The notes: generated by a model not told the origin, from the letters alone. Shown: positions 8,119 to 63,203, counted from the stretch's first letter. The stretch is DNA of 64,000 nucleotides from Ignavibacteriota bacterium (GCA_026390735.1 JAPLFJ010000046.1:1-64000), one strand, 5' to 3'. Made by a program: numbers and translations.

Positions 8119-9288
8119 TTAAACAAAAAACTCTTTCACACACTCACAAACATATTTCACCTGCTCTTCCGTCAACTCCGGAAACATCGGCAGCGACAAA
8201 CAATTATCAGCCAGATCCTCAGTCACGGGCAAATCCCCCCTCTTATACCCAAGATGCTCAAAGCACGGCTGCAAATGAAGCGGCACCGGATAGTGCAAAC
8301 CGCTCGCAACATCTTTTTCCCCTAAATACTTCATTAAAGACTCACGATTCTTCCCATTTTCATTTTTAACCCGAACAACAAACAAATGATAAACATGCTT
8401 ATTCCCTTTCATTTCTTTCGGCAACACCACACCATCACAATCACCAAGATACTTCCCATACCATTCCGCCGCCTGTCTCCTCCCCGCAGTCCATTTCTCC
8501 AGATGATTCAGCTTCACACCAAGTACAGCACCCTGCAAACCCTCCATACGATAATTATGCCCGTACATTAAATGCAAATATTTCTGGTGCGACCCATGTT
8601 CCCTCATCATCTTAAACTTCTTCCCAAGTTCCTCATCATTCGTACAAACCGCCCCTCCTTCACCATACGCACCAAGATTCTTCCCCGGATAAAAACTAAA
8701 CGACGCTGCAGCAGCCAGACCACCAACCTTCTTCCCCTTATACTCCGCCAGATGCGACTGAGCACAATCCTCCACCAAATAAATCACCTGCCCCGTTGTT
8801 TTATGTACATAAACCCCCTGGCTCTTCAATTCATAATTCAGAATTCTGAGTTCTGAATTAATTTTTTCTAGGTCTGTCGCTTGCCCGTATAAATGCACCG
8901 CCACAATCGCCTTCGTCTTCGGCGTAACCGCTCGTGCCACTGCTTTTGCATCCAGGTTATACGACTCAGCATCCACATCCACAAACACAGGCGTCGCACC
9001 GCACAGTGTAGCGCCCCACGCCGTCGCTATAAAAGTATCAGCAGGAATAATCACCTCATCCCCCTGCCCGACACCCAGAGCCCACAGCACAAGATGATTC
9101 CCGTCCGTCCCGCTCGAAACCCCCGAACAAAACTTCACATCGTGCTTCTCAGCAAACGCACTCTCAAAATTCGCCACAGGTTTCCCCAGAATATAAGCCG
9201 TATTATCCAGAACCTCATCCATCGCAACTCTCACCTCACTCTTAATCCCGCTGTACTGCAACTTCAAATCAACAAATGGTACCTTCAT
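8119..9288 (-). CDS. DegT/DnrJ/EryC1 sugar aminotransferase with in-frame repeat insertion
   Basis: A 389-residue PLP-dependent aminotransferase (WlbC/WbpE/FdtB type) for a keto nucleotide sugar. The PLP lysine is Lys203 in FYPGKNLGAYGEGG, and the cofactor-ring aspartate is in LVEDCAQSH (Asp174). Start ATG with GAGGAA upstream. Between DLEKI (139-143) and VEDCAQ the protein has an extra stretch, NSELRILNYELK (about 143-154) plus SQGVYVHKTTGQ. The first part is a translation of the TTCAGAA heptamer repeat at DNA 8827-8862. The catalytic motifs on both sides remain in frame, so the enzyme may still work. Its likely partners are the oxidoreductase at 2185 and the acetyltransferase at 3652. Its coding sequence is more GC-rich than the genes after 15 kb. 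Confidence 0.92.
   Translation of the reverse strand: MKVPFVDLKLQYSGIKSEVRVAMDEVLDNTAYILGKPVANFESAFAEKHDVKFCSGVSSGTDGNHLVLWALGVGQGDEVIIPADTFIATAWGATLCGATPVFVDVDAESYNLDAKAVARAVTPKTKAIVAVHLYGQATDLEKINSELRILNYELKSQGVYVHKTTGQVIYLVEDCAQSHLAEYKGKKVGGLAAAASFSFYPGKNLGAYGEGGAVCTNDEELGKKFKMMREHGSHQKYLHLMYGHNYRMEGLQGAVLGVKLNHLEKWTAGRRQAAEWYGKYLGDCDGVVLPKEMKGNKHVYHLFVVRVKNENGKNRESLMKYLGEKDVASGLHYPVPLHLQPCFEHLGYKRGDLPVTEDLADNCLSLPMFPELTEEQVKYVCECVKEFFV
8827..8862 (-). repeat. TTCAGAA heptamer repeat inside aminotransferase gene
   Basis: The coding strand reads AATTCAGAACTCAGAATTCT and onward, the same degenerate heptamer tract as in the intergenic spaces. It encodes NSELRILNYELK in frame, at a surface loop position between the beta-strand of the large domain and the VEDCAQ motif. 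Confidence 0.85.
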
Positions 9289-12182: not shown

Positions 12183-12521
12183 TCAAACCTTAATCCCAAA
12201 TATTTTCAAAAAACTCGGATTATTATCCAATGCATAAAATATTCTCTGAGCCGGCCCATCAGGAATATTTCTATTCCCTTCCCACGCTTCAATTGTTTTA
12301 ACGGATACACCGATAACTTCAGCAAATATCTTCTGAGTAACTTCAATTTTTTCTCTGACTCTTTTAATATCTTTACCTTTATATAATGGCAAATCAGGAA
12401 TAATAACCTCTCTCATTCTTTTAGCTGGTTTCTTTCCCTGAACAATCTCTAAAGCACTACTCAGACCATTTAGTATACTCGTATTAACTTCTTTTTTACT
12501 TCTTATTTTTATGTTTTTCAT
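12183..12521 (-). CDS. higA: HigA-like XRE-family antitoxin
   Basis: A 112-residue helix-turn-helix antitoxin. The N-terminal segment (about 1-35, KIRSKKEVNTSILNGLSSAL) is the part shared with the two truncated copies in this window. An XRE-type HTH follows at about 57-98, with TQKIFAEVIGVSVKTIEAWE as recognition region. It overlaps the toxin gene's 3' end by 26 bases, so the two are translated from one transcript, toxin first, the HigBA order. It would neutralise the toxin and repress the operon. The protein appears complete. Confidence 0.88.
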   Translation of the reverse strand: MKNIKIRSKKEVNTSILNGLSSALEIVQGKKPAKRMREVIIPDLPLYKGKDIKRVREKIEVTQKIFAEVIGVSVKTIEAWEGNRNIPDGPAQRIFYALDNNPSFLKIFGIKV

Positions 12522-12864
12522 TTAATTTTTCTTCAAGTTTATTTTCAATATCTTTAATTAGTTTTGCAATTGCTTTCTTTAAATCACTGCTTAAATCTGC
12601 AACTTCGCTTTTCCTTAATAGGGTTATAAAAAACAACTGCTCATATTTTGGAAAATCCACATACAGAATTCTTATGCCGCCGCTTTTACCCATTCCTTTA
12701 GCACCCCACCTTAATTTTCTTAAACCGCCCGTTGATTTAATAACATCACCCAAATCAGGATTTTTAATTAAAACATCCTCAACCTCTTTTAAATCATCAT
12801 CTTCAAGACCACTATCCACCCAGAGTTTCCAGAATTTATTATCTGACACAAATACTCTCTTCAT
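12496..12864 (-). CDS. higB: HigB/RelE-like toxin
   Basis: A 122-residue toxin of the RelE/HigB superfamily (the PF06296-like branch), expected to be a ribosome-dependent mRNA interferase. The family core GGLRKLRWGAKGMGKSGGIR is at about 46-65, followed by the ILYVDF strand and the FFITLLRKSE strand (about 79-88). The C-terminus is rich in lysine and glutamate. It is the first gene of the toxin-antitoxin operon, with ATG at 12864. The upstream 100 bases are AT-rich with no recognisable TAnnTTTG box. Confidence 0.88.
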   Translation of the reverse strand: MKRVFVSDNKFWKLWVDSGLEDDDLKEVEDVLIKNPDLGDVIKSTGGLRKLRWGAKGMGKSGGIRILYVDFPKYEQLFFITLLRKSEVADLSSDLKKAIAKLIKDIENKLEEKLNEKHKNKK

Positions 12865-14129: not shown

Positions 14130-15080
14130 TTAAAGATTCTGAATTACAAACTCAGCCACTTCCCTCGCCAGCATATTCCTCACCCCATTCAAACCCTTAA
14201 CATAAATCAAAAACTCTTCATACAACTTCATATTCTCACCAATCATCAGATAATCAGGATGTGTAATAAGCAAAATCATGCCATTATACTTCATCAGCCA
14301 CTCAGTCTTCTTTTTCCAGGTATCAATATTTTTCTCCCCCAACTGAATCCACAAAACATGGTCCTGAGGTAAAGTATACGGCAGTTCTACAAACTTCCCT
14401 GCCATAAACGGCCATATAAAATGCGTACCACCGGGCATCGGCTGATACGGGTCAACATCAAAACAACTCGAATCATATTTAATGTTCAAACTTTGCATCC
14501 ATTCCAGATTTCTCTGTGCAGCAGGACTTCTGTAACCGACACCTCCAAAGTTCTCAATTGCTTTATTTATTAAAACAACTCTCTTATCAAACAAATTCTT
14601 CGAAAAGAAATCCTTACCATCGTGATTATACCCGTGAACACCTACCTCGCACCCATTTTCTTTAATTAAATTAATAATTTCATTCGGTATATCATACAAA
14701 TATGGAACAACATTCCATGATGATTTAAACCCATACTTCTCTTCCAGCTCCAGAACTTTTGGCACATACTTTAGACCATCAATAGTTTCAACATCGTGCG
14801 TCAAAACAATAGGCGAAACTATGTCACTCCCCCATAAATTCTTTAATATTTCATTAAACTTTTCTTCTCCATAAAAGTCATTAAGCATTTTTACAACTTT
14901 ATCACTAATAAACCAATCTTTCTTAAACTCTATTTGTCTTTTGGATTGAAGAAAATGCCTCACTTTAAGAGGAATATAAGGGCGTAAATAATAATAACTC
15001 TTTTGCGGAAAAGACAGCCTTGGTTGATTATTTCTTTCAAAAATTATGCTTAAAACAATATTGGGTAAATCTTCAAACAA
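14130..15080 (-). CDS. Polysaccharide deacetylase-like protein
   Basis: A 316-residue carbohydrate esterase 4-like (NodB-fold) protein. Key motifs: LTHDVE at 93-98 (metal-binding Asp), GVHGYNHDG at 147-155 (His149, His153), and GYRSPAAQRN at 182-191 with the conserved Arg. It would remove an acetyl group from a sugar of the polymer or a lipid-linked intermediate. No signal peptide is visible, as in other members found in such loci. The start is TTG at 15080, preceded immediately by an in-frame TGA; no ATG fits before residue 65. The last codons (IQNL) and stop are heptamer repeat. It is the last gene of the minus-strand run before repeat-rich DNA begins. Confidence 0.85.
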   Translation of the reverse strand: MFEDLPNIVLSIIFERNNQPRLSFPQKSYYYLRPYIPLKVRHFLQSKRQIEFKKDWFISDKVVKMLNDFYGEEKFNEILKNLWGSDIVSPIVLTHDVETIDGLKYVPKVLELEEKYGFKSSWNVVPYLYDIPNEIINLIKENGCEVGVHGYNHDGKDFFSKNLFDKRVVLINKAIENFGGVGYRSPAAQRNLEWMQSLNIKYDSSCFDVDPYQPMPGGTHFIWPFMAGKFVELPYTLPQDHVLWIQLGEKNIDTWKKKTEWLMKYNGMILLITHPDYLMIGENMKLYEEFLIYVKGLNGVRNMLAREVAEFVIQNL

Positions 15081-15115: not shown

Positions 15116-15991
15116 TTAATATTTTGTTTGGAGAAATATTCCATAATCTCTTTTAATAAAAGATAGAAATTTTTTGTGAAGATTATTCTTTAAATAAGTA
15201 ACCGTAAAATTGTTTAAATCATACTCACACATTAAGCTATCTATGAATAATGTTACTATCTCTTTTTCCAAATTTATTTTGAAAGTGTGCTTAGCATTAA
15301 TTATAAACTCATTATTCATTTCATTATATTCTATATGATAATTATTCATTAATGCAAATTTTCTAAACAACTCTATATAAAAATTTATTTTTGCTTTTTT
15401 GTACCTATTAAAAGGTAATTTGTAATATTTAAGTATTGATGCATTGTTTGATACTAATGAATTTCCTTTAACACGGCTATTTAGAACTAAGCCAGGTGAA
15501 ACAATTGAATTCTCTTCCACATAGGTTCCTGCAAAACAACAGACATTTGCTCCTATCCAAACAAAATCTTCAAGAACAATTTTCTCTTTCTTGGTAATAT
15601 ACCCCTTATTAGCTGGTAAGAATGAACTATGCGAATAAACAGTATTTCTAACCCCAAAACCGGAATAATATCCAATTTCAATATCTGCATCACAATGAAT
15701 CAGAGTTTGCATCCCAATACCTGAATTTCCTTTCATAATCAATTTTCCATTACCCCTAATAAATGAAAAATAACTTATAAAAGAATTATCCCCTATATAA
15801 ATCTCAGCAACATTTATAAACACAAATCTTCGAATATCAACATCATTACCAATGAATATTTTATTTGCACTAATTAAAGAAAACAAAGGTAATTTGCAAT
15901 TTTTCCCAACTTTAAAACCAAAAATGCGAAATAACAAAACCGTTGCAAAAGAGGGTAATAAAAAAGATATATAACAAATAAATTTTTTCAT
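15116..15991 (-). CDS. Left-handed beta-helix acyltransferase
   Basis: About 291 residues from the ATG at 15991, eight bases after the upstream stop; a longer TTG start at 16030 would overlap the SDR gene. A hydrophobic N-terminus (about 5-24 of the chosen protein) is followed by hexapeptide repeats (IFIGNDVDI, IYIGDNSFI, IEIGYYSGFG) with the WIGANVCC segment and a non-repeat C-terminal domain of about 100 residues. It is probably the transferase that places an acyl group on the glycan. As the next gene after ACP, two KASIII-like enzymes and an SDR, it is the best candidate acceptor-side partner of that acyl-assembly set. This role is inference. Confidence 0.78.
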   Translation of the reverse strand: MKKFICYISFLLPSFATVLLFRIFGFKVGKNCKLPLFSLISANKIFIGNDVDIRRFVFINVAEIYIGDNSFISYFSFIRGNGKLIMKGNSGIGMQTLIHCDADIEIGYYSGFGVRNTVYSHSSFLPANKGYITKKEKIVLEDFVWIGANVCCFAGTYVEENSIVSPGLVLNSRVKGNSLVSNNASILKYYKLPFNRYKKAKINFYIELFRKFALMNNYHIEYNEMNNEFIINAKHTFKINLEKEIVTLFIDSLMCEYDLNNFTVTYLKNNLHKKFLSFIKRDYGIFLQTKY

Positions 15992-15998
15992 ATAAATA

Positions 15999-16727
15999 TT
16001 ATAAAGCTGTAAATCCACCGTCAACAACAATATTTGTACCGGTTATCCATTTCGATTTGGTACTAAGGAGAAAAATAACGAGATTTGCAACATCTTCAGG
16101 TAATCCGTACCCTAAAGGATACTTTTTCATGTCTTCATCAATCAATTCTTTTGATAATGTATTTTGTGTTTTTTCTGTCATAGGTGTTAAGACCATTCCC
16201 GGACTAACTGCGTTTACCCTTATTTTATTCACGGCCATTTCTATAGCCAATGTTTTTACTAAGCCAATTAATGCAGATTTTGTAGCAGAATATATACTAA
16301 TACCGGGTGACCCAATAATGGATGATATTGAAGAAATAAACACAATTGATGAATTATTATTTATCTTCCCTTTTTTTAATAATTCTTTCAACAAAAGTAC
16401 TTGAGATGTAAAATTTATTGTGAATAATTCAGTAATTAATTTCTTCGTTATATATTTAAATGGTACATATTTATTTACACCGGCTGAGAACACAATACCA
16501 TCTAAAACTGGGACTAAATCTACTATAACTTTAAGATTTTCAATATCGTTTAAGTCATAATTAACTAATGATTCACTCTTTAAGAGGTCAGATTTAGTAA
16601 TTCCCTTGCTAAAGTCACGACCTAATAAAGTTAAGTTATAGTTATCTTTCTTGGCCAATATTGCTACTGATTCACCAATACCTGAAGTAGCACCTGTAAT
16701 TAATAAATTCTTATTATGATTCTCCAT
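15999..16727 (-). CDS. Short-chain dehydrogenase, FabG-like 3-oxoacyl reductase candidate
   Basis: A 242-residue classical SDR. TGATSGIG at 11-18 binds NAD(P); the active-site set is Ser133, Tyr146 and Lys150 (YSATK); the end has the usual TGTNIVVDGG. The length equals FabG. In the row KASIII-ACP-KASIII-SDR-acyltransferase it most likely reduces a 3-oxoacyl group carried by the ACP to the 3-hydroxyacyl form. A sugar substrate cannot be excluded from sequence. It starts with ATG 11 bases after the preceding synthase's stop. Confidence 0.88.
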   Translation of the reverse strand: MENHNKNLLITGATSGIGESVAILAKKDNYNLTLLGRDFSKGITKSDLLKSESLVNYDLNDIENLKVIVDLVPVLDGIVFSAGVNKYVPFKYITKKLITELFTINFTSQVLLLKELLKKGKINNNSSIVFISSISSIIGSPGISIYSATKSALIGLVKTLAIEMAVNKIRVNAVSPGMVLTPMTEKTQNTLSKELIDEDMKKYPLGYGLPEDVANLVIFLLSTKSKWITGTNIVVDGGFTAL

Positions 16728-16738
16728 ATTGTTAAATA

Positions 16739-17794
16739 TTATTTGTCACATTCTAATACATTAGAAGTATATAAATTATTAACCTTTATAATACTTGTTC
16801 CCCAAGAAAGACCAACTCCAAAACCAGACAATAACAAAGTATTTTCATACCCTAATTTTCCATTCAAATTCGATACTATTGTTAATGGAATTGTTGCAGA
16901 ACTTGTATTTCCGTAATTTCCTAAACTATAAGGAACTTTCTCCTCTGGTAGTTTAAGTTTCTTCCTTATCATTTCGTTCATTATTTTGTTTGCCTGATGA
17001 AAAATAAAATAATCAATATCACCTATACATTTATTTGCAAAAACCAATAATTCATTTACCGCTTTAGGGACTTCCCGAATTGAAAAATTAAAAACATCAA
17101 CTCCATTTAAAAACAAGTTAAAGTCATTTCTGTTAATTCCTTCACCGTAATTATTTAAATCAAAAGAATCTCTACTAAATCCATTTCGGAATCCTGATTT
17201 AATTTTTATCGCATCATTCTTTGAACCATCAGATTTAAGCAAATAATAGAAATAATCAGATGAGTCCTTTTTCTCCAGTATAGTTGCTGATCCCGCATCA
17301 CCAAATAAAGGATAAGTTGATCTATCTGTTTTTGATACCACTTTTGATATCGTATCTCCACATAGTAGTAAAGCGGTCCCTTTGCTGGAGTTCTTTAAAA
17401 GATTACTTGCAAGATATAAACCATAAATATAACCAGCACACCCCATATTAACATCAATACAAATTGTATCTTGACCTAAGCCAAGTTCATATTGTAGATA
17501 ATTACTTGTAGATGGAATAATATAATCAAAAGTTTGAGACACCATAATCAGAATCCCAATGTCTTTCTTTTCAATGTTCATATTTCCTATCACATCTTCT
17601 GCAGCAACCTTGCATAAATCTGAAGTACAAGTACTTGGATTGGAAATCCTTCTTTTAGAAATTCCGGTTGTGTTTATTAATTGTTCTTTCTCGTCATCAT
17701 TTAAAATACTTAAATCATAATTAGACTCTTCATTCTTTGGGACACAAACAGATATCCCTTTAATATTTATTTGGTTTATTTTTAAAGCATTCAT
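16739..17794 (-). CDS. 3-oxoacyl-ACP synthase III (KASIII/FabH-like)
   Basis: A 351-residue thiolase-fold condensing enzyme with the complete KASIII triad: Cys119 (NMGCAG), His266 (FHQANK), Asn296 (GNYGNTSSA). It would condense an acyl-CoA starter with malonyl-ACP, or transfer an acyl group, as some FabH relatives do. It overlaps the ACP gene by four bases (ATGA), which implies coupled translation. About 35 residues longer than the chain-elongating FabH of most genomes at its N- and C-ends. The second paralogue lies on the other side of the ACP gene. It is dedicated to the glycan locus rather than to bulk lipid synthesis, judging by context. Confidence 0.92.
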   Translation of the reverse strand: MNALKINQINIKGISVCVPKNEESNYDLSILNDDEKEQLINTTGISKRRISNPSTCTSDLCKVAAEDVIGNMNIEKKDIGILIMVSQTFDYIIPSTSNYLQYELGLGQDTICIDVNMGCAGYIYGLYLASNLLKNSSKGTALLLCGDTISKVVSKTDRSTYPLFGDAGSATILEKKDSSDYFYYLLKSDGSKNDAIKIKSGFRNGFSRDSFDLNNYGEGINRNDFNLFLNGVDVFNFSIREVPKAVNELLVFANKCIGDIDYFIFHQANKIMNEMIRKKLKLPEEKVPYSLGNYGNTSSATIPLTIVSNLNGKLGYENTLLLSGFGVGLSWGTSIIKVNNLYTSNVLECDK

Positions 17795-18021
17795 TTTTTG
17801 CTTACTATAAAGTCATATAGCTCTTGAACAGTATTTATTTCTTTCAACTCATCATTACTGATTTCGATTTCATACTCCGAATCAATCATAGCAAGTACAC
17901 TTAAAAGAGCTAACGAATTCCATTCAGCCGTTGTCTTAAACTCAGTTTCATTGCTAAAAGAGCCAGCTGGGCTTCCTTCTATTGCATCCTCTAAATTCTT
18001 AATTAAATTTGTCATTTCCAT
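17791..18021 (-). CDS. Acyl carrier protein
   Basis: A 76-residue acidic ACP. The phosphopantetheine site is Ser36 in EWNSLALL (NSL in place of the usual DSL), exactly at the expected position. The four-helix pattern is intact, with helix 3 rich in Glu and Asp. It is a specialised carrier located between two KASIII-like genes rather than the housekeeping AcpP. It would carry short acyl chains for transfer to a sugar. Needs a phosphopantetheinyl transferase from elsewhere in the genome. Confidence 0.92.
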   Translation of the reverse strand: MEMTNLIKNLEDAIEGSPAGSFSNETEFKTTAEWNSLALLSVLAMIDSEYEIEISNDELKEINTVQELYDFIVSKK

Positions 18022-18051
18022 CGTTGTATCCTTTCTTTTTGATTAATAAAT

Positions 18052-19056
18052 TTAAAACTGTATAATATTGCCGGCCCATGAATATCCGACACCAAAACCA
18101 ATTATCATTACTTTGCTATTCTCTTTTATAATATTATTTTTAAAAGCTTCTTTCATTGCTATTGGAATAGTTGAAGAAACCGTGTTTCCCACGTCTTCTA
18201 AAAAGTAGAAAAACTTATTTTCAGGAATATTCAACTTTTTTCTTAACGTCTCAAGCATAAATTTATTTGCCTGGTGAAAAATAAACAAATCAATATCTTC
18301 AATCATAAGGTCATTCTTTATTAATAGATCTTTAACTAATTTGGGAACGGTCTTGAGTGTAAAAGAAAATATTTCTGCACCGTTCATGTATAAGTTATTG
18401 TTAAACTTTGGGTTGCCATTCGCATCTACTACGCCTTCTTCGTCTGTATTTTTCATATATCTCATCCCACCATTTTTAACAATCAAATTATTGGCCCCCC
18501 TGCCATCGGTCCCAAAAATAAATTGTTTAATGTCATTGCTTCCTTCGCAAGTTATTAGTGTTGAAGCAGAAGCATCACCGAATATAGTCTTTACACTTTT
18601 ATCTTTATGGTTAATAAACTTGGAGTAAGTTTCAGAAGTAATTAAAAGTACATTTTTAACATCCTCTGTAAGTATTAGTCCTTTTGCAAGACTTAGACCA
18701 TAAACAAAACCAGAACAACCCAAATTAAAATCTATTGCTCCAGCAGATGTTCGTAATCCAAGTCTATTTTGCAATAAACATGCTGTTGTAGGTAAAAAAT
18801 AATCAGGACTCTGAGTGCATAGGATTAAATAATCTATATCTATAGGATTAATATTGTACTCTTCAAATAATTTGAGAGAACTTTGTACAGCCATATCTGA
18901 AGAAAATTCGCTAGTGCCTGAAATATGCCGGTTCGTGATTCCGGTCTTTTCCGCTATTTTTTCTACAGACCACTCAGGGAAATTATCGTTTATCTCTTCA
19001 TTAGATAAAACATTTAATGGCAGATAATAAGATATTCCGCTTATCGAAACTTTCAT
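18052..19056 (-). CDS. Second KASIII/FabH-like synthase
   Basis: A 334-residue KASIII-like enzyme with Cys114 (NLGCSG), His261 (FHQANK) and Asn291 (DVGNTVSS), so the triad is complete. It shares the overall layout of the protein at 16739 but is clearly diverged from it. Two different full-triad enzymes around one ACP suggest either two condensation steps or one condensing and one acyl-transferring enzyme. Spacing to the ACP gene is 30 bases and to the next upstream gene 3 bases, so this is one operon. Confidence 0.92.
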   Translation of the reverse strand: MKVSISGISYYLPLNVLSNEEINDNFPEWSVEKIAEKTGITNRHISGTSEFSSDMAVQSSLKLFEEYNINPIDIDYLILCTQSPDYFLPTTACLLQNRLGLRTSAGAIDFNLGCSGFVYGLSLAKGLILTEDVKNVLLITSETYSKFINHKDKSVKTIFGDASASTLITCEGSNDIKQFIFGTDGRGANNLIVKNGGMRYMKNTDEEGVVDANGNPKFNNNLYMNGAEIFSFTLKTVPKLVKDLLIKNDLMIEDIDLFIFHQANKFMLETLRKKLNIPENKFFYFLEDVGNTVSSTIPIAMKEAFKNNIIKENSKVMIIGFGVGYSWAGNIIQF

Positions 19057-19059
19057 ATA

Positions 19060-19515
19060 TTATATTATATTATTTCTAATCTTTAATCTTTTATTTGTAT
19101 ATGGTAAAACCACAAACTCAAGCCCCTTAATTTTACTTAAATTATTAATAAATAATTTAAATATTCTTAATGTCAGCATTTCGTAGCTAAATATACCCTT
19201 TAAAGAAAATATATCATCAATGCAATAATGTTTAACTTCAATAACCTTTTTATTCAATTGCCCATAAACGACCACCCCTATTAATTTATGATTATTTTCC
19301 ATTTCAACAAATGCATAAACAACCCGCGTGTACAAATTATTATCCGATTTATACATTATCTTTTCATTCTCAATAGCAAATTTAGGTATACCATCTTTTG
19401 CTACAGTTTCTTCAATTCTGTTATAATACAAGTATTGGTATTTATTAAAATAGAACAGTCTTTCAATATCATTGAAAAATGAAACATCAATATCTGATTT
19501 TAAAAATATATTCAT
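19060..19515 (-). CDS. Unknown protein linked to the acyl-assembly cassette
   Basis: A 151-residue basic protein of mixed alpha/beta character that I do not recognise. It has a strand-rich centre (RVVYAFVEMENNHKLIGVVV) and a following YEMLTLRIFKLFINNL helix, somewhat like the core of a GNAT fold, but the acetyl-CoA P-loop (Q/RxxGxG/A) is not clear. It ends three bases before the second KASIII start, so it is co-transcribed. It could be an acyltransferase-like protein or a dedicated accessory protein of the cassette. Confidence 0.6.
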   Translation of the reverse strand: MNIFLKSDIDVSFFNDIERLFYFNKYQYLYYNRIEETVAKDGIPKFAIENEKIMYKSDNNLYTRVVYAFVEMENNHKLIGVVVYGQLNKKVIEVKHYCIDDIFSLKGIFSYEMLTLRIFKLFINNLSKIKGLEFVVLPYTNKRLKIRNNII

Positions 19516-19554: not shown

Positions 19555-20367
19555 TCATTCCTTTATTTCTCCTTTTGCTTTTATCCTCTTAATCTTTAAA
19601 TAATGAAGTATTAGCAATATTGCGCTATCCTTTATGAATAATGGTATTGATGTTATATAATTTTTAATTCTTATTGGGTCCTGATACAATCTATAACACC
19701 ATTCCAATGATAATTTTTGCAATATCAAAGGAGCTCTTTTTATATCCCCTAAATACCATTTAAAGCCTGCCCCTATTCCAACCATAATACCTCGATTGAT
19801 ATTATTGCAATTTTCATTCATCCAAATTTCTTGCTTACCACCGCCAAAACTAATCCATATAACATCTGCATTAAACTTATTTATATTAGAAACAATTTCA
19901 TTATTGTCATCAATACTCCAGTTTCTAAATGGTGGGCTGTAAATACCTTTAATTGTAACATTTGGATATTCAGCTTTTATTTTTTTCACTAATCTGTTTA
20001 ATGTTTCCTCTGTATCTCCTATAAAACAATGAGTAATTTTCTCTGTGTTAGACCTTTCCAGCATATTGTTAAAATAATCCGGACCGGCAACTCTGTCTAT
20101 TTCCTTAAAACTCAATAAACGACCAAAAATAGATAGTGGCCTTCCATCTGGTAGAGATAATAAAGAATTGTTTATTGATAACTTAAGTTTTTTAAAACGT
20201 CTATATGAATTAACTAAATTATTTACATCAGTGACGCAAATATATAAACAATTATTAATATTTATATAATCTAAAGTAATATCAACAGCAGATGAAAGAT
20301 TTGAAATAGAAACCTTCACACTTTTAAAATAGAAGCATTCTATTGTGCTTGTTTTATTACTCATCAA
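19555..20367 (-). CDS. WecG/TagA/CpsF-family glycosyltransferase
   Basis: A 270-residue GT26 enzyme, cytoplasmic face of the membrane. Recognisable parts: LPDGRPLSIFGRL (about 51-63, with the catalytic-base Asp of the family), FIGDTEETLNRL (about 94-105), the strand with IWISFGGGKQEIWM (about 152-165), and the C-terminal basic segment near EWCYRLYQDPIRIKNY that binds the membrane. It typically transfers an N-acetylmannosamine-type or uronic sugar to an undecaprenyl-linked GlcNAc. The exact donor is unknown. Confidence 0.93.
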   Translation of the reverse strand: MMSNKTSTIECFYFKSVKVSISNLSSAVDITLDYININNCLYICVTDVNNLVNSYRRFKKLKLSINNSLLSLPDGRPLSIFGRLLSFKEIDRVAGPDYFNNMLERSNTEKITHCFIGDTEETLNRLVKKIKAEYPNVTIKGIYSPPFRNWSIDDNNEIVSNINKFNADVIWISFGGGKQEIWMNENCNNINRGIMVGIGAGFKWYLGDIKRAPLILQKLSLEWCYRLYQDPIRIKNYITSIPLFIKDSAILLILHYLKIKRIKAKGEIKE

Positions 20368-28722: not shown

Positions 28723-29479
28723 GATTTTTTCTCCATTCTTTTTGAATCTGCTTTTTTATTAAAAGACATCCTGCAATGTTAACCATTCCGTAAATTGGAT
28801 ACAAAAAAGCATTAAAAATATTGTACAAAGACTTTCCGTGCTGTCTTTCTCTCATTTCAACTGCAACTTCTTTAATTTTTGCACCCGAAAAATGACTTAG
28901 TAAATGAGTTTGGTTTGGGTCATTAATCTCATTTTTATAATACCTGGAAAAGAAATTTATGATATTTCTGTCAAAAGCTATAAATCCCGATGTCACATCT
29001 TTAATTTTATAACCAATAATTAATGATATTAGAAATGAAAATAGATTAATTCCCATTCTTCTGAACATATACGACTGAAATCCCTTATTGTTCAAAAATC
29101 TTGATCCAATTACCTGGTTTGCTTCACCTTTAATTATTGGTTCAATAATTTTATGAATTTCTACAGCTTTATGCTGTCCGTCCCCGTCAAACTGACAAAC
29201 TATATCATAATTATTAAGATATGCATACAGGAGATATGACTTCCAGGTCCCATTAATGTCATCATTTATACAATGCCTGATGTATGGAATATTATTTATT
29301 CTGCATATTTCAGATGTGTTATCGTATGAGCCATTTTCGACTATCAGAATATCATAACCAAAGTTATTTTCATTTAAGTCATCATACACTTTCTTAATAC
29401 TCTTTTCTTCATTATATGAAATTACTGCTACCAATATTTTGGTGTTTTTCAACTCCGTCTTAGTTAATTCAAGGTTCAT
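28712..29479 (-). CDS. GT2 polyprenyl-phosphate glycosyltransferase (DPM1-like)
   Basis: A 255-residue GT-A transferase. VENGSYDNT (about 46-54) and QFDGDGQH (about 95-102, DXD metal site) are intact. The C-terminal part has one or two amphipathic or membrane-near helices (about 140-160 and 226-243). It overlaps its upstream neighbour by four bases (ATGA) and the DUF2304 gene by 11. It probably loads a sugar on a polyprenyl phosphate. Confidence 0.92.
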   Translation of the reverse strand: MNLELTKTELKNTKILVAVISYNEEKSIKKVYDDLNENNFGYDILIVENGSYDNTSEICRINNIPYIRHCINDDINGTWKSYLLYAYLNNYDIVCQFDGDGQHKAVEIHKIIEPIIKGEANQVIGSRFLNNKGFQSYMFRRMGINLFSFLISLIIGYKIKDVTSGFIAFDRNIINFFSRYYKNEINDPNQTHLLSHFSGAKIKEVAVEMRERQHGKSLYNIFNAFLYPIYGMVNIAGCLLIKKQIQKEWRKNHEL

Positions 29480-30066
29480 AATTCCTGGCTTTTATTATTT
29501 GCAACATTCTTCACAATTTGATTCGCTTTAATGAATACATCATTAGGAACATCTGTATGATCCACAACAACAGAATTTGCACCAATAAAACAATTATTTC
29601 CAATTGAAGAGAAACCGCACACAGTAGCATTAGGCGAAATAAATGAATTATTCCCAATCACTGAATCGTGACTGATAACCGTTCCAGGCCATAAAACAGA
29701 CAATGTTCCGACTTTTGCATTAAAGTCTATATTCACACCCGACATGATAATAGCCCCTTCATCAATTAAAGCAGTGTCACAGATATAAGAATTTGGATGA
29801 ATTACAGATGCAAATTTATAACCAGATGATTTCACATCATTGTACAGTTTCCATCTGTTTTTTAAATCAGTATAACCAATCCCCATAACAATCTCTGCTT
29901 GTTTAGTACTGTATATTTCTTTAACATCCTCAAATGAACCTAAAATACTTTCACCTTCAGATATATCACTTATGAACCCAAGAAATTCATAATCTGTATA
30001 TCTTATCAGATTTTTAAGTATTCTGCCAAAATCACCCGCACCATATATAAGAACTTTCTTTCTCAT
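29476..30066 (-). CDS. NeuD/PglD-like N- or O-acyltransferase
   Basis: A 196-residue protein in two parts: a Rossmann-like domain with GAGDFGR at 9-15, and a left-handed beta-helix with hexapeptide repeats ending near the ANQIVKNV segment. This is the NeuD/PglD layout, which acetylates amino groups of nucleotide-activated diamino sugars or sialic acids. It is next to an ATP-grasp ligase, an aminotransferase and a 4,6-dehydratase, so its substrate could be the amino group made by that aminotransferase. Confidence 0.9.
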   Translation of the reverse strand: MRKKVLIYGAGDFGRILKNLIRYTDYEFLGFISDISEGESILGSFEDVKEIYSTKQAEIVMGIGYTDLKNRWKLYNDVKSSGYKFASVIHPNSYICDTALIDEGAIIMSGVNIDFNAKVGTLSVLWPGTVISHDSVIGNNSFISPNATVCGFSSIGNNCFIGANSVVVDHTDVPNDVFIKANQIVKNVANNKSQEL

Positions 30067-30072
30067 AGCAAT

Positions 30073-31194
30073 TTACTGCGTTTCATTGTTTTTGTATATA
30101 ACATATCCGTGTCTGTTCAAACTATTAGTTACAGGTTTAAGAATATCCCCTTTAGTGCAATAAATTTCCTTCTTTACAATATCATTTTCATTAATACTGG
30201 TATCTAAAGTGTTTCCATCAAAAACACCTTCACCGAAATCATAATATTTTATACCTGACGCACCATTGCATTTTAAACTAATTTCCGGCTTAAGACCTAA
30301 ACATATATCTATCAACGCACTCTCCATGTTAAAACCCGTTGATAAAGGTGTAAGATGCGATGTAATAAAATCACCTCCTAACCTCCCGCCAATTTCAATT
30401 ATTTTTATATCATCACCATTAATCTTTAACTCAGTATGGCAGGCACAATTGTCTAATCCAATTGTGCTAATTGTTTTTTTAATTAATTCATTAATTTTTT
30501 CTTTTTCTGATATCGTAAGATTTGCAGGCTGTTTATGACCCATTTCTACATTATATGGAGCATCGGAAACAACTTTATCGGTATATTGAATTATTTGTGT
30601 TTCCCCACCAAATGTTAAACTTTCAATACTTAATTCTCTCCCTTTTAAGTATTCTTCCACAATAACACTTCCATCGGTTGAAAACACTTTAGTTTTTTCA
30701 TAATTGTTAATCAAATCCTCTTTACTTTCGCATAACACCACTCCTCTGCTTCCGGAACTGTCACTTGGTTTTATGATTAAAGGATATTCAATACCTTTAA
30801 TTTCCATCAGTTCCTTCAAAGTATTAACCCGAATTCCATTTGCACAAGGTATATTGTTTTGTAGGAAACATTTTTTCATTTCATACTTATTTGTCGCAAT
30901 CTTAATACTTTCTTCAGATGGGAAATTAAAAGCGAATTCTTTTGCTACTTTTGCCATCATTCTTAAAGGTTTATCGGTTGATGAAGTAATAATGCCATTA
31001 AAATTATATTCTCTTATGATTGAACCTGTTCTTAAATAGTCATTACCTGAAACAACAATAAACTTATCAGCAATATTCTTTGAATATGCGTTTTCATCAG
31101 GGTCTATTGCAATTGTATAAATACCTTTTTCCTTAGCAACACTAATTAGGGATTCTTGTAATTCACCTGCACCAAAAATCAGTATTGAATCCAT
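30073..31194 (-). CDS. ATP-grasp carboxylate-amine ligase-like protein
   Basis: A 373-residue ATP-grasp protein. The N-terminal pre-grasp domain begins with ILIFGAGELQ. The ATP-binding P-loop-like part is YPLIIKPSDSSGSRGV (about 125-140), and the metal-binding end is ELKINGDDIKIIEIGGRLGG (about 257-276). Members join a carboxylate to an amine with acyl-phosphate chemistry. In this cassette it might attach an amino acid or another carboxylate to the amino sugar made by the aminotransferase next door. This role is inferred from context. A paralogue is at 52357-53469. Confidence 0.88.
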   Translation of the reverse strand: MDSILIFGAGELQESLISVAKEKGIYTIAIDPDENAYSKNIADKFIVVSGNDYLRTGSIIREYNFNGIITSSTDKPLRMMAKVAKEFAFNFPSEESIKIATNKYEMKKCFLQNNIPCANGIRVNTLKELMEIKGIEYPLIIKPSDSSGSRGVVLCESKEDLINNYEKTKVFSTDGSVIVEEYLKGRELSIESLTFGGETQIIQYTDKVVSDAPYNVEMGHKQPANLTISEKEKINELIKKTISTIGLDNCACHTELKINGDDIKIIEIGGRLGGDFITSHLTPLSTGFNMESALIDICLGLKPEISLKCNGASGIKYYDFGEGVFDGNTLDTSINENDIVKKEIYCTKGDILKPVTNSLNRHGYVIYKNNETQ

Positions 31195-31226
31195 TTACTA
31201 TATAATTCTTATAAATTTGTTTATAA

Positions 31227-32351
31227 TCAAAAATAACTTTTAACTTTGTTTGATATATACTCGATGTTTTCATTTATTAAACTTGAGTACATTGGTAATG
31301 TAATTTCACATTTTGAGATATATTCTGTTAAAGGTAATACATTATCTGCATTATAGAAAATTTCAAATTTATGAACTGATGGATAATGGACACTTGTTTG
31401 AATTCCTGCATCTCTTAAGTGCTCTCTGATTATATTCCTTTTTTCTTTTGTTGAATTCCTTAATACGATTGGGAATATATAGTTAGATGAGAATTCACTT
31501 CTTTCTTTGAATGGTATAATAATACTTTCAATATCACATAAATTATCTATATACATTTTTCGTATTTCCGACCTTTTCTTTAAATCATCTTCTAATTTTT
31601 TTAACTGAACAATCCCAATCGATGCCCTTATATCATCCATCCTGTAATTGTATCCGGGATTCACAACATCATATTCAGTAGCATGTCCTTTAGCTCTTTC
31701 AAAAGACATCGTTGTCATTCCGTGTGACCGTAATAGTTTTGCCTTTTCATAGTATTCCTGATTATCTGTTATCAACATCCCGCCTTCACCTGTGGATATA
31801 TTCTTGTTGGAAAAGAAACTGAAACAACCTATATCACCGATAGTTCCAAGCTTTTTTCCTTTGTATTCAGATAATGGCCCATGACAGGCATCTTCAATTA
31901 CTCTAAGATTATGCTCTTTTGCAATTCGCATTATTTCATCCATATCGCATGCAAAACCACCGTAATGCATCACTATAATTGCTTTTGTTCTTTCTGTGAT
32001 CAATGATTTGATTTTTACTGGGTCAATGTTCAAATCCTCATAACTTTTAACGTCGCAAAAGACTGGTGTAGCATTTACATATTTTATGCAGTTTGCAGTT
32101 GCTACAAATGTTAATGAAGGACAAATAACTTCATCCCCTTCACCAATCCCAAGTATCAACATTGCAAGATGTAATGCCGACGTGCAACTGCTTAATGATA
32201 CCGCATACTTGCTGCCAAGCATACTTGAGAATAAGTCCTCAAATTCTTTGCACTTTGGTCCTGTGGTTATCCATTTAGACCTTAATGTATCTATAACAGC
32301 TTTTTCCTCAGCCTCATCAAAGTTCAAATCAAATAAAGGAATATTCATCAT
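31227..32351 (-). CDS. DegT/DnrJ/EryC1 aminotransferase (LegC-like)
   Basis: A 374-residue PLP enzyme of the sugar-aminotransferase family. The PLP lysine is Lys183 (FSNKNISTGEGG), the ring-binding Asp is in VIEDACHGP (about 151-159), and NYRMDD is at about 234-239. It overlaps the 4,6-dehydratase gene by four bases (ATGA). The likely reaction is 4-amination of the 4-keto-6-deoxy sugar nucleotide made by that dehydratase, as LegC does in legionaminate synthesis. Confidence 0.92.
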   Translation of the reverse strand: MMNIPLFDLNFDEAEEKAVIDTLRSKWITTGPKCKEFEDLFSSMLGSKYAVSLSSCTSALHLAMLILGIGEGDEVICPSLTFVATANCIKYVNATPVFCDVKSYEDLNIDPVKIKSLITERTKAIIVMHYGGFACDMDEIMRIAKEHNLRVIEDACHGPLSEYKGKKLGTIGDIGCFSFFSNKNISTGEGGMLITDNQEYYEKAKLLRSHGMTTMSFERAKGHATEYDVVNPGYNYRMDDIRASIGIVQLKKLEDDLKKRSEIRKMYIDNLCDIESIIIPFKERSEFSSNYIFPIVLRNSTKEKRNIIREHLRDAGIQTSVHYPSVHKFEIFYNADNVLPLTEYISKCEITLPMYSSLINENIEYISNKVKSYF

Positions 32352-33319
32352 ACGTTATATATATCAGATTTATACAAATGAATGTTATCTTTTAAAAAAT
32401 TAATCGTATTCATTAATCCGGCTTTTAAAACTGTTTTTGGTGTCCACTCAGTATTCTCTAAAATCTTTCTGTTATCACATAATAATCTTGTTACTTCGCT
32501 CTTCTCAGGTCTTATTCTTTCATCTTTATTTATTATCGTAACATCCCCTGCTAATTCAGAAATCATTTTTATTAAATCAGATACCGATATTTCTTTAGCA
32601 TTGCCAATATTTGTAATTTCGCCGAATAACTTGTCACTTTTATATATACTTAAAAAACCGTTTGCGGTGTCATTTACGTAGGTAAAATCTCTCGTTGGAG
32701 TCAAATTTCCTAACTCTATAGTCTTCTTTCCTTCTAATATTTGTATAATAGTACCTGGAATAATTGCTCTTGCTGATTGTCTGGGACCGTATGTGTTAAA
32801 CGGCCTTACCACTTTTACGGGTAATTCAAAACTTCTGTAATAGCTTAACGCCAGCTCATCAGCACCAATTTTTGTTGCAGAATAAGGCGACTGCCCTGCT
32901 AATGGATGTTTTTCATCAATCGGTACATACTGTGCACTGCCGTATGTTTCACTCGTCGAAGTTACTAATACTTGCTTCAGATTTAAATGCCTGGCAGACT
33001 CAAGAACGTTGTATGTACCTTCTATGTTTGTTCTTATGTATGCTAATGGTGATACGTAAGAATAAGGTATTCCTATTAATGCTGCAAGATGGAACACTGC
33101 ATCGCAGCCCTCCATTGCTTTTTTAACTGAATCATAATCACGGATGTCACCGCTTACAACTTCAATATCATTTTTATATTTTGAATTTTCGAGCCAGCCC
33201 CAGTTATTCCTGGAATTGTACCTGACAAATGCTTTTACGTCATAACCTTTTTCAACACATAATTCTGTTAAATGTGAACCAATAAATCCGCCTGACCCTG
33301 TAATTAATAAATTCCCCAT
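32348..33319 (-). CDS. Extended SDR nucleotide-sugar 4,6-dehydratase (LegB-like)
   Basis: A 323-residue extended short-chain dehydrogenase. NAD-binding GSGGFIG at 8-14, active-site Tyr146 and Lys150 (YSATK), and STSETYG at 121-127, where the acidic residue next to the catalytic position (Glu124) marks dehydratases rather than epimerases. RPFNTYGPRQ follows. It would make a 4-keto-6-deoxy sugar nucleotide. The nucleotidyltransferase upstream and the aminotransferase downstream complete a short amino-sugar pathway like LegB/LegC with a PtmE-like start. Confidence 0.9.
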   Translation of the reverse strand: MGNLLITGSGGFIGSHLTELCVEKGYDVKAFVRYNSRNNWGWLENSKYKNDIEVVSGDIRDYDSVKKAMEGCDAVFHLAALIGIPYSYVSPLAYIRTNIEGTYNVLESARHLNLKQVLVTSTSETYGSAQYVPIDEKHPLAGQSPYSATKIGADELALSYYRSFELPVKVVRPFNTYGPRQSARAIIPGTIIQILEGKKTIELGNLTPTRDFTYVNDTANGFLSIYKSDKLFGEITNIGNAKEISVSDLIKMISELAGDVTIINKDERIRPEKSEVTRLLCDNRKILENTEWTPKTVLKAGLMNTINFLKDNIHLYKSDIYNV

Positions 33320-37160: not shown

Positions 37161-38321
37161 CTATAAATCAGCAATATCTATAAATCTTTGAGAAATATAA
37201 CTCCATTTAAAATTTGATAATGCAAGAGCTCTCCCATTTTTCCCCATTTGCTTCATCTTGCCTTTTTCCGTCACTAAATTGAGAACACTTTTCCTTAAAT
37301 CCTCCAGATTTGCTTCACGAATTCCATAGCCGTTATTATTGGTTAATCTTTCATTTAGATAATCGCATACAACAATAGGTAATCCACAACTCATAGCATC
37401 AACACTGCTCATTGATGCTTCCTTTGGCCATATGGCTATATCTGAAGCTAAATAGTATTTTAATAAATCTTTGCTCGGAATGGCCTCTATATGTATAAAT
37501 TTCTCCTTATATATAGTTTTATACAATTCTAATCTCTTTAAATAATCTTTGCCAATACTTCCTATAAACAATACATATAAATTATATTTCTTGAATTCTT
37601 CTGTTAATGCCTCTAAAATTAAGACTGGATCTTTAGTTTCAATAATTTTCCCGGTATAAATTATTAACACATCATTTTCTGTGATTTTTAATGCTTTTCT
37701 TGTTTCTTCTCTGATAATTGCATCAGGACGGAAATATTCTGTATCGGTTCCCAGTGGAATTACCTCTATTTTATTTTTATGTTTATACTCATTTATCATA
37801 AATTCTTTTGTTTGCTCGGTTACTGCAACTAATTTTGCATTACTCGTATTAATTATTAAAGCATAGAGGTTATTAATAATTCTGAGAACTATGCTTTTAG
37901 ATTTAACGTGATTGCTTGTATAATGGTCATGCGCATCCATTATCAGCTTAAAGCCATAATATCTTTGTAATATAGGCAAGATTAAAGAATAATAATTATA
38001 AACACCGTGAACTATTACTAAGTCGGGCTTAAGTCTTTTAAAAAGCTTGAAAAATCCCTTTAGCCAGATTCTTCTCGCTGGTTGCTCTAATATTCCTTTA
38101 AGTCTGTAAACAGTAAACCCCTCGATAGTTTCTTCTCTAGGTTCAAATTCACGCTCCCCTAAAATTGATTTTACAGTGTTATCATAATCGGGTAACGGGA
38201 AATACTTATTTGAAGTAATAACATGAACTTCATGTCCTGCTTTTGCTTGTTCTCTTGAAAGAAAATATTCCTGATAGCCTAATTGATGCTGGAAATAATT
38301 AATTAAATGAACAATCTTCAT
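37161..38321 (-). CDS. GT4 glycosyltransferase
   Basis: A 386-residue GT-B enzyme. It begins MKIVHLINYFQ and has an acceptor-domain segment FKLIMDAHDHY, then a C-terminal donor domain with LIIYTGKIIETKDP, FIGSIGKDYL, and SMSSVDAMSCGLPIVV. The first glutamate of the usual E-x7-E is present as PKEASM. The gene overlaps the asparagine-synthetase-like gene upstream by four bases. Confidence 0.93.
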   Translation of the reverse strand: MKIVHLINYFQHQLGYQEYFLSREQAKAGHEVHVITSNKYFPLPDYDNTVKSILGEREFEPREETIEGFTVYRLKGILEQPARRIWLKGFFKLFKRLKPDLVIVHGVYNYYSLILPILQRYYGFKLIMDAHDHYTSNHVKSKSIVLRIINNLYALIINTSNAKLVAVTEQTKEFMINEYKHKNKIEVIPLGTDTEYFRPDAIIREETRKALKITENDVLIIYTGKIIETKDPVLILEALTEEFKKYNLYVLFIGSIGKDYLKRLELYKTIYKEKFIHIEAIPSKDLLKYYLASDIAIWPKEASMSSVDAMSCGLPIVVCDYLNERLTNNNGYGIREANLEDLRKSVLNLVTEKGKMKQMGKNGRALALSNFKWSYISQRFIDIADL

Positions 38322-40279: not shown

Positions 40280-40280
40280 A

Positions 40281-41990: not shown

Positions 41991-41991
41991 G

Positions 41992-47696: not shown

Positions 47697-48521
47697 TTAT
47701 AACATTTTCTCAGCAACAACAATCAAACTACCACCAAAAGGTAATTTGATTCCAATTTGAATTAAATATTCGTCAATCTTTAAAATAAATTCAAATAATT
47801 TATTAATAAATCTGTTCATCTCCAACTCTGCGAATGTTTCTTTTTCTGTATCCCCTATTCGTTTGTTTCTTTTGAACCACCTTGACAGAAGCATTAAAGG
47901 AAATAGTGAAAATACAAATGAAGAATGGAATTTAATTCTAAACCCGTTTCTTCTTAATTTATTCAACAATTCAATCTTTGAGTACCTTCTTTTGTGACAA
48001 GCTATATCGTCCAAATAACACCACATAAACATATATTGAGGTACACTAACAAAGAATATCCCTCCTGATTTAAGCGACTTATTCACATTTTTCATAACTA
48101 ATTCATCCTCTGCTATGTGTTCCAAAACATCAAAAGCGCCTATACAATCGAATTCATTCTCAAACGGCATGTTTGTGGCATCCAATTGAACAAATTCAAT
48201 TTGTGGAAGCCTCTTTTTAGCAAATTTTAATCCTTCTAAATATATTTCGGCACCGTATAATTCCAGGTTCTTATATTTTTCCAAACCCTTTAAGACATAT
48301 CCAGTCCCGCAGCCAATTTCGAGGAATTTTCCCATAACTTTATTTCCAAAATATTTTGCCACTAATATTTGCGCAATTCGGTTTCTTGACCTGAACCAAA
48401 AATTCTTCTCCTCTAAACCATATAGTTTTCTGAAACTTGATTCTTTGAAATCATTATTTTCCATTGCTAATTCAGGTGCATAACATTTAACACCCTCAAT
48501 TATTTTGATATTATTTTGCAT
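47697..48521 (-). CDS. Class I SAM-dependent methyltransferase
   Basis: A 274-residue methyltransferase. Motif I is FLEIGCGTG at 66-74, the acidic end of strand 2 is in ELYGAEIYLEG, and the post-I segment FDCIGAFDVLEHI with YSKIELLNKLRRNGF is of the Methyltransf_11/23 type. The N-terminal 45 residues have FWFRSRNR, common for those in glycan loci. It overlaps the aminotransferase upstream by 11 bases. It may methylate a sugar or an intermediate of the cassette; substrate unknown. Confidence 0.88.
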   Translation of the reverse strand: MQNNIKIIEGVKCYAPELAMENNDFKESSFRKLYGLEEKNFWFRSRNRIAQILVAKYFGNKVMGKFLEIGCGTGYVLKGLEKYKNLELYGAEIYLEGLKFAKKRLPQIEFVQLDATNMPFENEFDCIGAFDVLEHIAEDELVMKNVNKSLKSGGIFFVSVPQYMFMWCYLDDIACHKRRYSKIELLNKLRRNGFRIKFHSSFVFSLFPLMLLSRWFKRNKRIGDTEKETFAELEMNRFINKLFEFILKIDEYLIQIGIKLPFGGSLIVVAEKML

Positions 48522-49641
48522 TATAGAATTTACTTATAAGTTTGCAAATAGTATTGATTTCATCAATTTCCAGCTCGAAATAGAAAGGTAATCTTAATAA
48601 GCAATCTGAATAAAAATCACAATTTTTAAGCTCTTTTCCTTTATATCGATTTTCATAAAAAGGTGATTTATGCAATGATTGATAATGAAATACTGCATAA
48701 ACACCATTCTCTTTAAGATATTTAATCAAATTATCTCTTTCGTCTTCATTTTTACAAACTACATAAAACATATGACCGTTATTAGTTGCAAAATCCGGTA
48801 TAAACGGTAGTTTAAAATACCCTTTTTGCTCTAAGGCAACTAAGCCTTTGTAGTATTCTATCCAGATTTTTTGTCTCTTTGTCTGAATCTTGTCCATTTC
48901 TTCTATCTGCGCATAAAGAAATGCAGCAACAATTTCAGAAGGTAGAAACGATGACCCAACATCAACCCATCCATATTTATCTATTTCTCCTCTCCAAAAA
49001 GCCGCTCTATTGGTTCCTTTTTCCCATATAATTTCAGCTCGTTTAATAAACCTATCATCATTAACTACAAGCATTCCACCCTCACCTGATATAATATTCT
49101 TTGTCTCGTGAAATGAAAAAGCTGATAAATGACCAATAGAACCAAGCGGTTTTCCACTATAGTAAGAATCTATTGCTTGTGCGGCATCCTCAATCACAAA
49201 AAGATTGTGTTTCTCTGCAATTTGCATAATCTTATCCATATTGCAAGCAATTCCTGCATAATGAACAACAACGATGGCTTTGGTCTTTGATGTTATTAAT
49301 TCTACAATTTTATTTTCATCAATATTTGGATTTATTTCAGAACTGTCAGCAAAAATTATATTAGCTCCTCTTAAAATAAAAGCATTTGCAGTTGAAACAA
49401 ATGTATAAGAAGGCACAATTACTTCATCACCCGGTTTTATGTCCAATAATAAAGCACACATTTCTAATGCATCTGTACAACTCGATGTCAATAAACATTT
49501 CTTAAATCCATACCTATCCTCAAAATACATATTGCATTTTTGTGTGAAATCACCATTGCCTGATATCTTGCCAGATTTTACGGCATCAAAGATATATTGA
49601 GTTTCTTTTCCTGTTAAGTAAGGTTTATTAAAAAATATCAT
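48511..49641 (-). CDS. rffA: dTDP-4-amino-4,6-dideoxygalactose transaminase (RffA/WecE/FcnA)
   Basis: A 376-residue DegT-family enzyme with features of the RffA branch: FNKPYLTGKETQYIFDA at 4-20, KISGNGDFT at 25-33, SYTFVSTANAF at 78-88 and SFHETKN with PLP Lys181. It aminates dTDP-4-keto-6-deoxyglucose to dTDP-Fuc4N. The dTDP-glucose pathway genes (RmlA/RmlB) are not in this window. It overlaps both neighbours (4 and 11 bases), next to an N-formyltransferase that could act on the new amino group. Confidence 0.9.
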   Translation of the reverse strand: MIFFNKPYLTGKETQYIFDAVKSGKISGNGDFTQKCNMYFEDRYGFKKCLLTSSCTDALEMCALLLDIKPGDEVIVPSYTFVSTANAFILRGANIIFADSSEINPNIDENKIVELITSKTKAIVVVHYAGIACNMDKIMQIAEKHNLFVIEDAAQAIDSYYSGKPLGSIGHLSAFSFHETKNIISGEGGMLVVNDDRFIKRAEIIWEKGTNRAAFWRGEIDKYGWVDVGSSFLPSEIVAAFLYAQIEEMDKIQTKRQKIWIEYYKGLVALEQKGYFKLPFIPDFATNNGHMFYVVCKNEDERDNLIKYLKENGVYAVFHYQSLHKSPFYENRYKGKELKNCDFYSDCLLRLPFYFELEIDEINTICKLISKFYNAK

Positions 49642-58987: not shown

Positions 58988-58997
58988 AATATTATAT

Positions 58998-60323: not shown

Positions 60324-60388
60324 TATAAAACTTTAAACTCCGCGTTTTGTGTGTCCGCCGTCTTGTTTGGCGGATTAACTTTTAACTT
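60324..60388. repeat. TCCGCC hairpin repeat unit
   Basis: CTCCGCGTTTTGTGTGTCCG and TCCGCC-n9-GGCGGA make a perfect six-base hairpin at about 60355-60375, with ATAATTCATCATTC-type units after it. This is the same unit as at 12117, 13740 and 13815. It marks the return of flank-type repeats on the right of the AT-rich block. Confidence 0.7.
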
Positions 60389-61162: not shown

Positions 61163-61232
61163 TTTGCTTTTCTGCTTTGTTGTTTATATCCTTTGTCACT
61201 TTGTTACTTCTTTTAAAACTCTTAACTCTCAA
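61163..61232. repeat. TTTGTCACTTTG-type repeat spacer
   Basis: TCCTTTGTCACTTTGTTACT and TTAAAACTCTTAACTCTCAA units. A related unit is at about 62130-62180, at the end of the PseI gene. No gene. Confidence 0.55.
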
Positions 61233-63202: not shown

Positions 63203-63203
63203 A

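Follow-up and report, generated by a model that had tools for sequence, protein, structure and literature searches.

Hydroxyacyl tags on surface sugars help to set serotype in several bacteria, and the enzymes that make them have seldom been matched to the acids. Two described systems lie closest to the subject of this report, a six-gene cassette (positions 15116-19515, minus strand) in a 64,000-nucleotide stretch from an Ignavibacteriota bacterium (GCA_026390735.1, JAPLFJ010000046.1:1-64000; hereafter the window). The O-antigen of the fish-associated Flavobacterium psychrophilum carries a 3,5-dihydroxyhexanoyl group, known by nuclear magnetic resonance (PMC6519341) and of (3S,5S) configuration (PMC3210612). 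Its O-polysaccharide R1 cluster holds two 3-ketoacyl-acyl carrier protein (ACP) synthases (wfpC and wfpE), an ACP (wfpD), a reductase (wfpF), and an acyltransferase (wfpG); there the authors predicted the gene functions from homology, while the acid itself was determined chemically (PMC6519341). A 3,5-dihydroxyhexanoyl group is also reported from the O-antigens of Vibrio cholerae O3/O100 (PMC8074265). In Pseudomonas syringae, a viosamine island (vioA, vioB, vioR, vioS, and acp) has one 3-ketoacyl-ACP synthase III (KASIII) and yields 3-hydroxybutyryl-viosamine on flagellin; the modified sugar is lost when vioR is deleted, so that genetics and mass spectrometry together prove the reductase to be necessary (PMC3927599).

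An earlier note on this stretch did not recognize the gene set of the cassette, which proves to hold the same five functions as wfpC-G: two synthases, an ACP, a reductase, and an acyltransferase, in a surface-polysaccharide cluster. By the published description used here, the F. psychrophilum acyltransferase is a PglD homologue and that of the window is of a different hexapeptide type; pglE and pglF in the same F. psychrophilum cluster supply Qui2NAc4N, whereas no PglE or PglF adjoins the window cassette; and the window has an extra gene, U151, whose counterpart goes unmentioned in the parts of PMC6519341 drawn on. The vio island likewise dedicates a KASIII, an ACP, a reductase, and an acyltransferase to one glycan substituent, but has a single KASIII, a C4 product on flagellin, an adjacent dTDP-viosamine pathway, and no reported U151. 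A hydroxyacyl line with KASIII, ACP, and reductase in a glycan locus is already a known kind; new here are a GNAT-fold component, a transferase of unusual type, and the way in which the synthase clades pair.

We read the cassette as a dedicated type II acyl line that would decorate a surface glycan with a hydroxy acid made by two condensations, an explanation that we hold as a whole to be probable. The gene set points very strongly to a glycan hydroxyacyl line of some kind; the predicted product, a C6 3,5-dihydroxyhexanoyl group suggested by the synthases and by analogy, is favored with more reserve.

Gene content of the cassette

All six parts are present, in the order U151, KASIII-1, ACP, KASIII-2, short-chain dehydrogenase/reductase (SDR), and hexapeptide acyltransferase on the minus strand (Table 1). 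Successive genes are spaced by 3, 30, -4 (the ACP and KASIII-2 genes overlap by 4 bp), 11, and 7 bp; this spacing is operon-like, as the earlier note had proposed. Domain searches agree with the enzyme identities first suggested, including the ACP with Ser36: Pfam matches were ACP_syn_III N- and C-terminal domains in both synthases, PP-binding in the ACP, adh_short_C2 in the SDR (cofactor motif TGATSGIG; catalytic YxxxK as YSATK), and a weak Hexapep in the acyltransferase. Both catalytic triads are complete (C114/H261/N291 in KASIII-1 and C119/H266/N296 in KASIII-2), again as first described. The acyltransferase was started at an ATG (15991), the alternative TTG at 16030 overlapping the SDR gene and being less likely. 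A WecG-type glycosyltransferase gene ends 39 bp upstream of the cassette, and the surroundings form a glycan biosynthesis cluster (glycosyltransferases and WecG, LegB, PseI, and WecE-type genes). Promoter and terminator scans gave no signal above shuffled controls.

The cassette is not housekeeping, because the genome carries separate FabH and FabG genes. The organism's own FabH (contig 16) scored 362.2 bits on TIGR00747 (cut-off, 292.1), against 247.1 bits for KASIII-1 and 212.5 bits for KASIII-2; its own FabG (contig 44, G000:C44) scored 329 bits on TIGR01830 (cut-off, 297.75), against 131.9 bits for the cassette SDR. KASIII-1 shares 51-65% identity with cassette KASIIIs from other genomes and 28% with the organism's own FabH. 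The cassette enzymes also stand apart from 14 FabH sequences of related genomes, which group together (quick tree; Shimodaira-Hasegawa-like approximate likelihood ratio test [SH-aLRT], 100). Housekeeping lipid synthesis was ruled out on the ground that FabH and FabG above curated cut-offs are encoded elsewhere in the genome.

Table 1. Cassette genes and other features of the window, with the evidence for each
Feature	Position	Strand	Evidence
U151, divergent GNAT-fold protein (predicted), 151 aa, conserved FFNxNQ and LHIA motifs	19060..19515	-	AlphaFold2 model, structure comparison
KASIII-1, KAS1 clade, proposed initiating condensing enzyme	18052..19056	-	ACP_syn_III domains; clade apart from FabH
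Dedicated acyl carrier protein, Ser36 in WNSL	17791..18021	-	PF00550, 25.4 bits (cut-off, 20.8)
KASIII-2, KAS2a clade, proposed second, chain-extending condensing enzyme	16739..17794	-	ACP_syn_III domains; tree
FabG-like SDR, proposed 3-oxoacyl-ACP reductase	15999..16727	-	adh_short_C2, 1.7e-44
Hexapeptide acyltransferase, ~100-aa C-terminal extension, proposed acyl-ACP:sugar acyltransferase	15116..15991	-	Weak Hexapep; His121 invariant
WecG/TagA/CpsF glycosyltransferase, upstream gene of the cassette's run (context)	19555..20367	-	PF03808, 1.6e-44
Polysaccharide deacetylase-like gene directly downstream of the cassette (context)	14130..15080	-	PF01522, 25.2 bits (cut-off, 23.1)
WecE-type dTDP-4-amino-4,6-dideoxygalactose transaminase, possible source of acceptor amino sugar	48511..49641	-	NF008687, 562 bits (cut-off, 375)
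NeuD/PglD-type acyltransferase, ATP-grasp, DegT aminotransferase, and LegB-type dehydratase; possible alternative acceptor source	29476..33319	-	TIGR03570, TIGR04180

Synthase clades and the predicted acid

Related loci were found with KAS1, KAS2, or U151 queries, so that the counts given here are not population frequencies, and early contig ends may hide partner genes. The search of other loci suggested by the earlier note yielded >100 related cassettes, mostly from Bacteroidota; the kind is widespread. Among the 80 best named relatives of KASIII-1, Bacteroidota predominate, and Acidobacteria, Verrucomicrobia, Actinomycetota, Planctomycetes, and other groups contribute the rest. SDR and ACP genes lie within the fetched flank in 63 of the 80, an association beyond chance, and 27 of these 63 have a KASIII-2-type gene too. 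Frequent neighbors are PglD-type transferases, DegT aminotransferases, and sugar-phosphate transferases.

Uncharacterized cassettes of Flavobacterium, Pedobacter, Chitinophagaceae, and Bacteroidales (L109-L127, L130, L145, and others) resemble that of the window in having ACP, KAS2a, SDR, and KAS1 in one run, their synthases being ~60% and ~50% identical to those of the window; they differ in gene order, many have a PglD-type transferase, and nearly all are without U151. In Flavobacterium spp., including the non-pathogenic F. johnsoniae, a strain of which carries L119, the run comprises ACP, KAS2a, SDR, KAS1, and a PglD-like gene (L109-L111, L113-L116, L118-L120, and L125). An order like that of the window (KAS1, ACP, KAS2, SDR, hexapeptide transferase, and aminotransferase) was seen in L204, from a Flavobacterium-genus genome. 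F. psychrophilum was not listed by name among the named KASIII-1 relatives or the Flavobacterium-genus matches.

The quick tree separates FabH, KAS1, KAS2a (SH-aLRT, 97; includes KASIII-2 of the window), and KAS2b (SH-aLRT, 99), the last two being parts of one KASIII-2 group; recent duplication of one KASIII was ruled out by this tree. In the tree, KAS2a takes in nearly all sampled second KASIIIs of two-synthase cassettes. When KASIIIs of all loci (~120) were sorted with clade profiles, KAS1 and KAS2b shared no locus, each occurring alone or with KAS2a. Of the 80 named loci, 47 have KAS1 by itself, 28 pair it with KAS2a, 4 hold two KAS1 genes, and 1 combines it with three KAS2a; KAS2b was alone in 8 loci and with KAS2a in 4. 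The pattern is as expected if KAS1 and KAS2b, as they appear to be, are interchangeable initiators and KAS2a an extender. All 64 aligned cassette KASIIIs keep Cys, His, and Asn. At the column matching the FabH gate residue Phe87, FabH has Phe or Tyr, in contrast to Leu, Met, or Ile in nearly all cassette enzymes (Leu/Ile in the window KASIIIs), a replacement that could widen the primer pocket.

The window thus combines KAS1 with KAS2a, two different 3-ketoacyl-ACP synthases by clade. From the observed gene content and clade membership we infer the catalytic steps, the C6 product, and the acceptor as follows. KASIII-1 would join acetyl-coenzyme A (acetyl-CoA) and malonyl-ACP into acetoacetyl-ACP, which the SDR would reduce to 3-hydroxybutyryl-ACP; KASIII-2 would add a second malonyl unit, and a second reduction by the SDR would give 3,5-dihydroxyhexanoyl-ACP. 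The hexapeptide acyltransferase would then transfer the acid from ACP onto a sugar, an amino sugar nucleotide being the likeliest acceptor (an O-acyl link is also possible), with U151 probably an accessory acting with acyl-ACP. We predict the C6 acid rather than a C4 acid because the window has the two-condensation form, KAS1 with KAS2a, and also because the structure of the F. psychrophilum O-antigen points to two condensations; like configuration at both centers of its (3S,5S) acid would suit a single reductase working twice. Of the model in the earlier note, a dedicated line from 3-oxoacyl to 3-hydroxyacyl for a glycan stands, on gene content, the separate FabH and FabG, and the two published systems; its single condensation leaves two KASIIIs unexplained. 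If the two-condensation explanation is true, KASIII number and clade would predict the chain length of the decoration (C4 for an initiator alone, C6 with KAS2a), and clade pairing (KAS1 or KAS2b, alone or with KAS2a) would be a simple, testable predictor of the acid from sequence.

Were the line to make only C4 3-hydroxybutyryl, the two KASIIIs would be redundant or would form a mixed dimer. One-KASIII cassettes are the commonest form among the named KAS1 loci, and glycans often carry 3-hydroxybutyryl (PMC3927599; PMC8074265); both window KASIIIs, however, have full triads and belong to separate clades, KAS2a is nearly always a second synthase beside an initiator, and the published two-synthase locus, in the description available, makes a C6 acid (PMC6519341). 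We regard the C4 product as unlikely.

The synthases could also have another role, one KASIII transferring the acyl group to the sugar without condensing and the hexapeptide protein acting elsewhere, for example as an O-acetyltransferase. KASIII-like sugar acyltransferases (CerJ type) occur in some antibiotic pathways, the hexapeptide protein is weakly related to known transferases, and three loci (L070, L073, and L091) hold U151, ACP, and a KAS2a-like gene without an SDR. The acyltransferase-type KASIIIs known to us depart from the Cys-His-Asn triad, however, unlike the aligned cassette enzymes, and a separate PglD or hexapeptide gene lies near many cassettes, so that we give this role little credence. 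Still less probable is that the genes belong to bulk lipid synthesis or to that of a free secondary metabolite and lie in a glycan locus by accident: KASIII, ACP, and FabG-like SDR are fatty-acid-type enzymes, and the same three trios are isolated outside any obvious sugar locus, but the cassette enzymes fall below the curated cut-offs that the organism's own FabH and FabG exceed, and homologous cassettes recur beside PglD, PglE-type aminotransferases, and sugar-phosphate transferases.

Several points weigh against a dedicated two-condensation line. It is a prediction from genes, and the likeness to wfpC-G is one of gene functions. KASIII enzymes normally use acyl-CoA primers, and a 3-hydroxybutyryl primer for KASIII-2 is an assumption. 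The pairing rule is imperfect, given the several loci with two KAS1 genes and the one in which KAS1 accompanies three KAS2a; six loci have a KAS2a-like gene and no partner KASIII in the stretch read (five of the six genes are divergent). The cassette acyltransferase bears only a weak resemblance to known sugar acyltransferases and is of another type than PglD, and no amino-sugar aminotransferase adjoins the cassette, the recognized ones lying ~6 kb downstream (8119-9288) and ~12 kb upstream (31227).

U151 and the hexapeptide acyltransferase

The earlier note had listed U151 as an unknown protein; it now has a predicted fold and recurs with such cassettes. Profile searches gave no domain or family above cut-off, a sequence search of solved structures gave nothing significant, and sequence matches to GNAT models were at noise level. 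The AlphaFold2 model (predicted local distance difference test, 84.3; predicted template modeling score, 0.79), which stops shortly past the fifth core strand, was compared with the PDB: the top-ranked matches were nearly all GNATs (Foldseek best E value, 2.3e-3, with none at or below 1e-3; VIA-align Z, 9-10.6). U151 is therefore predicted to have a GNAT fold, shared with HP0935 (8iyo), RimI (2cnm), and the GNATL loading domain of CurA (2ref). Unlike the GNAT superfamily, it has no conserved acyl-CoA pyrophosphate-binding loop (Q/R-x-x-G-x-G/A), the loop after LHIA varying in sequence and length among 12 family members.

Bacteroidota genomes yielded 12 further U151 homologues, and for 8 of these the nearest KASIII gene is no more than 4.5 kb away (chance rate, ~1%, from ~4 KASIII matches per 4-Mb genome); two more are in Verrucomicrobia loci reached via KAS1 (L147 and L182); U151 recurs beside KASIII/ACP lines in more than one phylum. 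It also occurs in loci without a nearby KASIII (L076, L094, and L095), and in L076 (7565-10318) it is surrounded by an ACP-like open reading frame, an SDR, and an apparent aminoglycoside 3-N-acetyltransferase-type gene; from such loci, its role may not depend on KASIII. The most economical guess is that U151 handles an acyl group on ACP. A bolder proposal, which we offer tentatively and rather doubt, is that U151 founds a GNAT-fold subfamily without the CoA loop that works on acyl-ACP (in hydroxyacyl transfer or in control of KASIII/ACP) and marks a distinct, undescribed subclass of glycan acyl lines in more than one phylum, with KASIII number and clade setting chain length. Two other ideas were rejected: the 70 pattern matches to U151 in viral contigs included no relative, which disposed of a viral gene, and a link to the malonyl-ACP decarboxylase MadA draws no support from fold alone, the decarboxylase being a hot-dog domain (PMC8666670).

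The acyltransferase is WbbJ/WcaF-like with a C-terminal extension, and a PglD-type N-terminal domain was not found in it; the invariance of His121 extends over 6 aligned remote relatives. A homologue in L208 (1345-3825) lies directly downstream of an ACP gene and an FkbH gene (TIGR01686, above cut-off), and a weaker relative in L098 stands beside KASIII and SDR genes; because these placements fit, acyl-ACP is the presumed donor. The L208 arrangement suggests that this transferase family is also supplied by a glyceryl-ACP line.

Possible acceptor sugars and neighboring genes

Two amino-sugar routes in the window could possibly provide the acceptor. Transaminases 64-67% identical to the WecE-type one adjoin KASIII genes in L138 and L200 and, in L123, lie near a cassette. 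The LegB/DegT/NeuD set scored 137 bits on TIGR03570 (cut-off, 160.8) and 471 bits on TIGR04180 (cut-off, 475); its NeuD/PglD-type gene (29476-30066) is the only one in the window, its ATP-grasp gene (30073-31194) was named from sequence only, and its LegB has a 55% identical relative in cassette locus L143 (Chitinophaga terrae).

Further along (58463-63914), the gene content suggests a sugar like pseudaminic or legionaminic acid: a PseI-type nonulosonate synthase (523 bits, above cut-off) is accompanied by cytidylyltransferase-like, aldo/keto reductase, GNAT, and PIG-L-like deacetylase genes. Three asparagine-synthase-like genes, an unusual number, lie close together in the glycan locus (38318-44897). 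Genes weakly similar to the polysaccharide deacetylase-like gene downstream of the cassette occur near the cassettes of L074 and L160. Beside the glycan locus (12183-12864), two small overlapping genes resemble a RelE/HigB-type toxin and a helix-turn-helix antitoxin.

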